Shown here piece after piece: positions 61,490 through 61,719 of a stretch of 64,000 nt of DNA. Source of the DNA: Sediminispirochaeta smaragdinae DSM 11293 (GTDB lineage: Bacteria > Spirochaetota > Spirochaetia > DSM-16054 > Sediminispirochaetaceae); NCBI RefSeq assembly GCF_000143985.1, contig NC_014364.1:3162001-3226000 (forward strand), read 5' to 3'. The position numbers were made by a program, and so were the translations under genes. Under the pieces are notes generated by a model. It saw nothing but the letters and a program-made list of their open reading frames with translations. It was not told the DNA's origin and did no database searches. The stretch's first letter is position 1. Every line of letters starts with the position of its first letter.

Positions 61490-61507
61490 TGCAGGAGCCG
61501 TGCCAAG
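61490..61507 (-). promoter_or_regulatory. Sigma-54 promoter of the nif operon
   Basis: On the minus strand TTGGCACGGCTCCTGCAT has the invariant GG (-24) and GC (-12) in correct register (TGGCAC-N5-CTGC against the consensus TGGCAC-N5-TTGC). Transcription would start near 61480, about 40 nt before the nifH ATG. Confidence 0.88.
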
Positions 61508-61513
61508 TTGTGC

Positions 61514-61682
61514 TAGTGTTCAGAATATTGGTGATATATGGACGTCAAGTATCCCCCCCACCAACAGGAAATGATATAAATTTATATATAATATACAATT
61601 ACAAATAAATATATTTGGGAAATAGTAAATTCGGACGTTCTAATCGGGAACGGCGTTATGACCACCAATATTCGGAACACTA
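61514..61682. mobile_element. MITE-like element C (169 bp) in the nifH upstream region
   Basis: The left end (61514-61535) begins TAGTGTTCAG and ends TGGTGAT; the right end (61661-61682) read in reverse begins TAGTGTTCCG and ends TGGTGGT, 20 of 22 positions alike and with TA at both tips. The AT-rich interior differs from elements A and B and has no gene. It starts 7 bp behind the sigma-54 promoter and makes up most of the 304-bp gap between nifH and the activator gene. Confidence 0.72.
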
Positions 61683-61687
61683 TACTT

Positions 61688-61719
61688 TTACACATTATTG
61701 TAAAGAAATCGTTCTTACA
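61688..61719. promoter_or_regulatory. Candidate upstream activator site for the nif operon
   Basis: TTACA (61688), 6 nt, TGTAA (61699), 11 nt, TTACA (61715) form overlapping inverted repeats, the only strong dyads in the gap outside element C. They differ from the classical TGT-N10-ACA NifA site. They lie about 180-210 bp upstream of the sigma-54 promoter, a workable enhancer distance. Confidence 0.45.

Follow-up and report, generated by a model that had tools for sequence, protein, structure and literature searches.

A MITE between predicted activator sites and the sigma-54 promoter of nifH in Sediminispirochaeta smaragdinae

In the gap between nifA and nifH of Sediminispirochaeta smaragdinae DSM 11293, a mini-transposon separates the sigma-54 promoter of nifH from a pair of predicted activator sites. 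By its sequence features the element is a MITE: it is short and non-coding, has TIRs, belongs to a family with many copies in the genome, and has a resident insertion sequence (IS) with matching ends. The family is of an ordinary kind; what is unusual is the position of this copy between activator sites and promoter. The reading that we regard as probable is that the element, mobilised by the resident IS, serves as the looping DNA between the paired sites and the nifH promoter, that is, as a sequence-neutral spacer. The locus is a natural experiment on the extent to which unrelated mobile DNA may stand in for the sequence between a bacterial enhancer and its sigma-54 promoter. Two further results are an activator motif predicted for the nif genes of spirochaetes and an unassigned IS group that seems to be the source of about a hundred mini-elements in one genome.

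The element in the nifA-nifH gap

The genome is a single contig of 4,653,970 bp, of which the window analysed covers the 64 kb at positions 3162001-3226000; the features of the window are collected in Table 1. The minus strand carries, in this order, nifV, nifA, nifH, nifI1, nifI2 and further nif genes, all names besides nifH and nifA being ones that we assume from recognition of the proteins. The nifA product scores 527.4 bits against TIGR01817, slightly below the cut-off of 528.85. Among the 30 nifH loci compared in the class, this locus counted, 28 have a -24/-12 box upstream of the gene.

Table 1. Features of the nif region, in positions of the 64-kb window
Feature	Position	Strand	Remarks
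nifH, first gene of the nif operon	60612..61439	-	
nifA-type sigma-54 activator gene (GAF, AAA+, Fis-type HTH)	61744..63378	-	Pfam GAF, Sigma54_activat, HTH_8
Sigma-54 -24/-12 box of nifH, TGGCACGGCTCCTGCA	61490..61505	-	one mismatch to consensus
TA at promoter-side edge (presumed target duplication)	61514..61515	.	
MITE copy between nifA and nifH	61516..61680	.	165 bp TIR to TIR; family ends genome-wide
Promoter-side TIR, GTGTTCAGAATATTGGTG	61516..61533	+	
Enhancer-side TIR, GTGTTCCGAATATTGGTG	61663..61680	-	
TA at enhancer-side edge (presumed target duplication)	61681..61682	.	
UAS2, proximal predicted activator site, TTTACAATAATGTGTA	61689..61704	-	11.7 bits, second-best match in 64-kb window
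UAS1, distal predicted activator site, TGTACATTTTGGTAAA, perfect TAC-N6-GTA	61728..61743	-	15.5 bits, best match in 64-kb window
Second MITE of the family, 3' end of nif region	52263..52406	.	orthologous site in congener also has it

The gap (61440-61743) contains an inverted repeat of 20 nt (61514-61533 and 61663-61682, 95% complementary), within which the MITE ends proper are 18 bp long, matched at 17 of 18 positions and bordered by TA on either side. The insertion that the initial annotation had placed here is real, with a net size of 167 bp (165 bp plus one TA) rather than the 169 bp given there. Its adjacency to the promoter also stands: the TA starts 9 bases above the -24/-12 box, leaving 8 bases between them.

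The MITE family and its probable driver

The 18-bp end has 184 matches in the genome at up to three mismatches, against a single match for a reversed control pattern, and about 150 in the one congener; in two further species of the host's family and in one of the class, its matches do not exceed chance level. Many copies are 144-145 bp in length, and TA lies outside the repeat at 85 of 90 ends at the loci sampled in this genome and the congener. Comparison of the joined flanks of IS copies with the congener gave no clean empty site by which a TA duplication could be told from a terminal TA: most of the joined flanks stop at contig ends, one corresponds to an unclean empty site, and one holds a mini-element. 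Lone ends are also present. A single, well-preserved end at window positions 49392-49409 is kept before a patatin-like gene in the congener, and at four other loci further well-preserved ends, several of them near gene starts, lack an identifiable second end over a distance of about 170 bp.

In the congener, an assembly-breaking, protein-coding sequence occupies one of the family's insertion sites, and a search with the encoded protein finds nine full-length, uninterrupted copies in the S. smaragdinae genome, together with several partial ones. The IS so defined is 1225-1235 bp long, with TA at both flanks, 18-bp TIRs (e.g. GTGTTCTGAATCGTGGTG or CTGTCCGGAATCGTGGTG) matching those of the MITEs, and a transposase of 372 aa, intact in all nine copies, with a zinc-finger-like start. 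This 1.23-kb IS is, from its ends, the probable driver of the MITE family. Relatives of it are present in three other genomes compared.

The transposase falls below every Pfam and NCBIfam cut-off and has no match among solved structures. The best hint is that its N-terminal region scores 30.7 bits against NCBIfam transpos_IS1 (E 2.8e-7), far below the cut-off of 100; the group may represent an unassigned IS family distantly related to IS1. IS1 is known for target duplications of 8-9 bp, whereas the IS here is flanked by TA. IS630 is the usual TA-specific family. A driver of the IS630 or Tc1-mariner type was rejected, because DDE_3 (PF13358) is absent from the genome and the matching IS encodes another transposase.

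Within genome positions 4647500-4650000 a full IS is found, and the same site in the congener (C18:14001-14386) holds a mini-element of about 125 bp that has the IS's own left end. Mini-elements that derive from the IS, or that use its sites, would be expected to give such a pairing, and the site is possibly a direct case of IS-to-MITE conversion.

Predicted activator sites

Gapped palindromes were counted in the nifH upstream regions of the class, that of the window being left out. The top palindrome, TTTAC-N6-GTAAA, occurs in 6 regions, compared to a maximum of 3 for any pattern in 30 shuffles. This palindrome was extended to a position matrix, with this genome and its three closest nifA-nifH relatives left out of the training, and the two best matches of the matrix in the window are UAS1 and UAS2, which are 39 bp apart; UAS2 is imperfect, one half reading GTG and not GTA. 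When the motif is applied to relatives in a leave-one-out manner, a site is found in 21 of 26 and none in the other five, and the pairs, present in ten, are all spaced 39-41 bp apart. No comparable pair of sites turned up in 20,000 resampled gaps. A search of the 600 bp upstream of nifH for the proteobacterial-type NifA site, TGT-N10-ACA, was negative.

The spirochaete-derived motif agrees with the published AnfA site, TAC-N6-GTA, which mutations and gel shifts had established in Rhodobacter capsulatus; the anfA-anfH gap of that species also contains two of these sites (PMC7294313). An AnfA-type layout thus occurs here at nifH, with paired TAC-N6-GTA-like sites upstream of a -24/-12 box. From the motif matches we infer that UAS1 and UAS2 bind the activator; another regulator may read the motif. 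The dyad that the initial annotation had noted at 61688-61719 overlaps the proximal site; the stronger distal site was missed there.

The possibility that the two matches are not activator sites, that the enhancer lies elsewhere (for instance inside nifA), and that the position of the MITE has no regulatory meaning, is very improbable: the sites are predictions and five of the 26 relatives have no motif site, but the matches rank first and second in 64 kb at the correct pair spacing, under a motif that was trained on other genomes and that agrees with a tested AnfA consensus.

A further strong match (13.2 bits) is found beyond the end of the window, in the 20 kb searched there, at position 64651. 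Two sigma-54-like boxes, at 64425-64440 and 64870-64885, face nifV-nifA and modABC, with motif matches between them at 64651-64696. The match at 64651 is about 204-211 bp from each of the two boxes, and about 200 bp therefore looks like a spacing that this genome uses. The sequence of this divergent nifV-nifA / modABC region suggests that nif genes and molybdate uptake are under joint control.

Order, spacing and the role of the element

Both top motif matches lie beyond the element and nothing inside it scores above 5.3 bits, compared to 15.5 and 11.7 bits outside, which supports the order predicted activator sites, MITE, -24/-12 box, nifH. The central claim of the initial annotation, a MITE-like element between the nif enhancer region and the sigma-54 promoter, is accordingly upheld by the TIRs, the TA flanks, the 184 ends and the motif sites beyond the element. 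An activator site inside the element, which it had named as contrary to that claim, does not appear.

The proximal site is 199 bp from the -24 box. Since the MITE supplies 167 bp of this distance, it would be the DNA that loops. In the mechanism proposed, the resident 1.23-kb IS with matching ends would have mobilised the MITE in trans, and the spacer of the ancestor would have disappeared or become shorter at about the same time. A NifA/AnfA-type enhancer-binding protein would bind the paired sites upstream of the MITE, and the bound activator would contact sigma-54 RNA polymerase by looping of the MITE DNA. The element would then most likely be a sequence-neutral spacer, of which the length matters and the content does not.

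Spacings in relatives bear on how the present one may have come about. Because the congener lacks the nif cluster, there is no true empty nif-gap site for comparison. In the 21 relatives with a site, which belong to families other than the host's, the proximal site lies 56-227 bp from the -24 box, a range that takes in the 199 bp seen here. An element-free gap, which the initial annotation had suggested looking for among relatives, is found in the three closest nifA-nifH relatives, where the pair lies at 148-151 and 187-190 bp. If 167 bp (the element and one TA) is subtracted from the coordinates here, the proximal site would be 32 bp and the distal site 71 bp from the -24 box, and 32 bp is less than in every one of the 21 relatives. 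Thus, unless the promoter of the ancestor was unusually compact, the idea that the insertion simply lengthened a standard enhancer distance by 169 bp is not sustained. It is likelier, given these spacings, that the loop DNA is now that of the MITE and that an older spacer has been lost than that the element was plainly added. A stronger form of this, in which the MITE has been co-opted as the spacer between enhancer and promoter, the ancestral spacer is gone and the promoter depends on the length of the MITE, is tentative and stands at somewhat less than an even chance.

A simple insertion that was tolerated, with a compact ancestral promoter whose sites lay 32 and 71 bp from the -24 box until the MITE pushed them away, and with no spacing role for the element, is unlikely. 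The TA on either side has the look of a clean insertion, the proximal sites of some relatives are as near as 56 bp, a distal site at 71 bp would be within range, and by arithmetic a net insert of 167 bp makes approximately 16 helical turns, which would keep the helix face. Nevertheless, a site at 32 bp would be nearer than in any relative, and the closest nifA-nifH relatives have theirs at 148-151 bp.

Decidedly unlikely is the view that the MITE adds regulation of its own, through a bending site, a promoter that reads outwards or a long hairpin that the TIRs would form in the nifA transcript. In its favor, the element folds better than shuffled sequences, both as single-strand DNA (z -3.8), chiefly because of the TIR stem, and, for that stem, as RNA of the nifA-nifH strand (z -3.3), and its core is 79% A+T; Correia elements, moreover, have IHF sites and putative promoters (PMC2229807). 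Better-than-shuffled folding of the TIR stem, however, is what any such element would show. The copy has no gene inside and no IHF-like site within one mismatch, its promoter-like matches are near chance level and none is above it, no intrinsic terminator was found between nifA and nifH, and no Rfam family matches 61000-62000 up to E 1. Furthermore, no second copy of the interior was found in the genome, and a conserved regulatory module is therefore absent from it. The suggestion in the initial annotation that the insertion could bring new regulation consequently loses ground, and none of these searches gave reason to credit the element with more than a spacer role.

Comparison with known systems

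Compared to the MITE family described here, the RUP elements of Streptococcus pneumoniae, for which mobilisation by IS630-Spn1 has been proposed, are similar in having many intergenic copies, TA ends, TIRs that match a resident IS, and a size of about 100 bp (PMC2229807). Unlike the case of RUP, the driver here is not an IS630, there is no DDE_3, and the transposase weakly resembles that of IS1. The Correia or NEMIS elements of Neisseria, at 107-155 bp, share long TIRs, TA termini and the occurrence of size variants (PMC2229807). They differ in carrying an IHF site and putative promoters, neither of which was found in the nif-gap MITE.

The closest likeness in promoter layout is the AnfA-dependent anfH promoter of R. 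capsulatus, which has a GAF-AAA-HTH activator gene directly upstream of the H gene, two TAC-N6-GTA sites in the gap between these genes and a sigma-54 box downstream of the sites (PMC7294313). In contrast to the nifH promoter here, no transposable element is described between its sites and its promoter, and it serves an iron-only nitrogenase rather than a nif operon (PMC7294313). Among the open-access papers searched, none was found that deals with a transposable element separating a sigma-54 promoter from its enhancer.

The nif region in the congener

The alignment with the congener breaks off precisely where the second MITE ends (52407) and is taken up again at 64717, and modABC comes next in both genomes after this junction. 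Between the breakpoints the congener has 72 bp (C7:20766-20839) with a stretch of 24 bp that weakly matches nifV (E 4e-4). These observations suggest, from the alignment, that the congener lost a nif region of 12.3 kb, with one breakpoint on the edge of a MITE. Within genome positions 4554900-4555400 there is a MITE; the congener has in its place about 1.1 kb that lacks family ends and includes an open frame of 354 aa, which suggests that here too a MITE marks the junction of a deletion or replacement.
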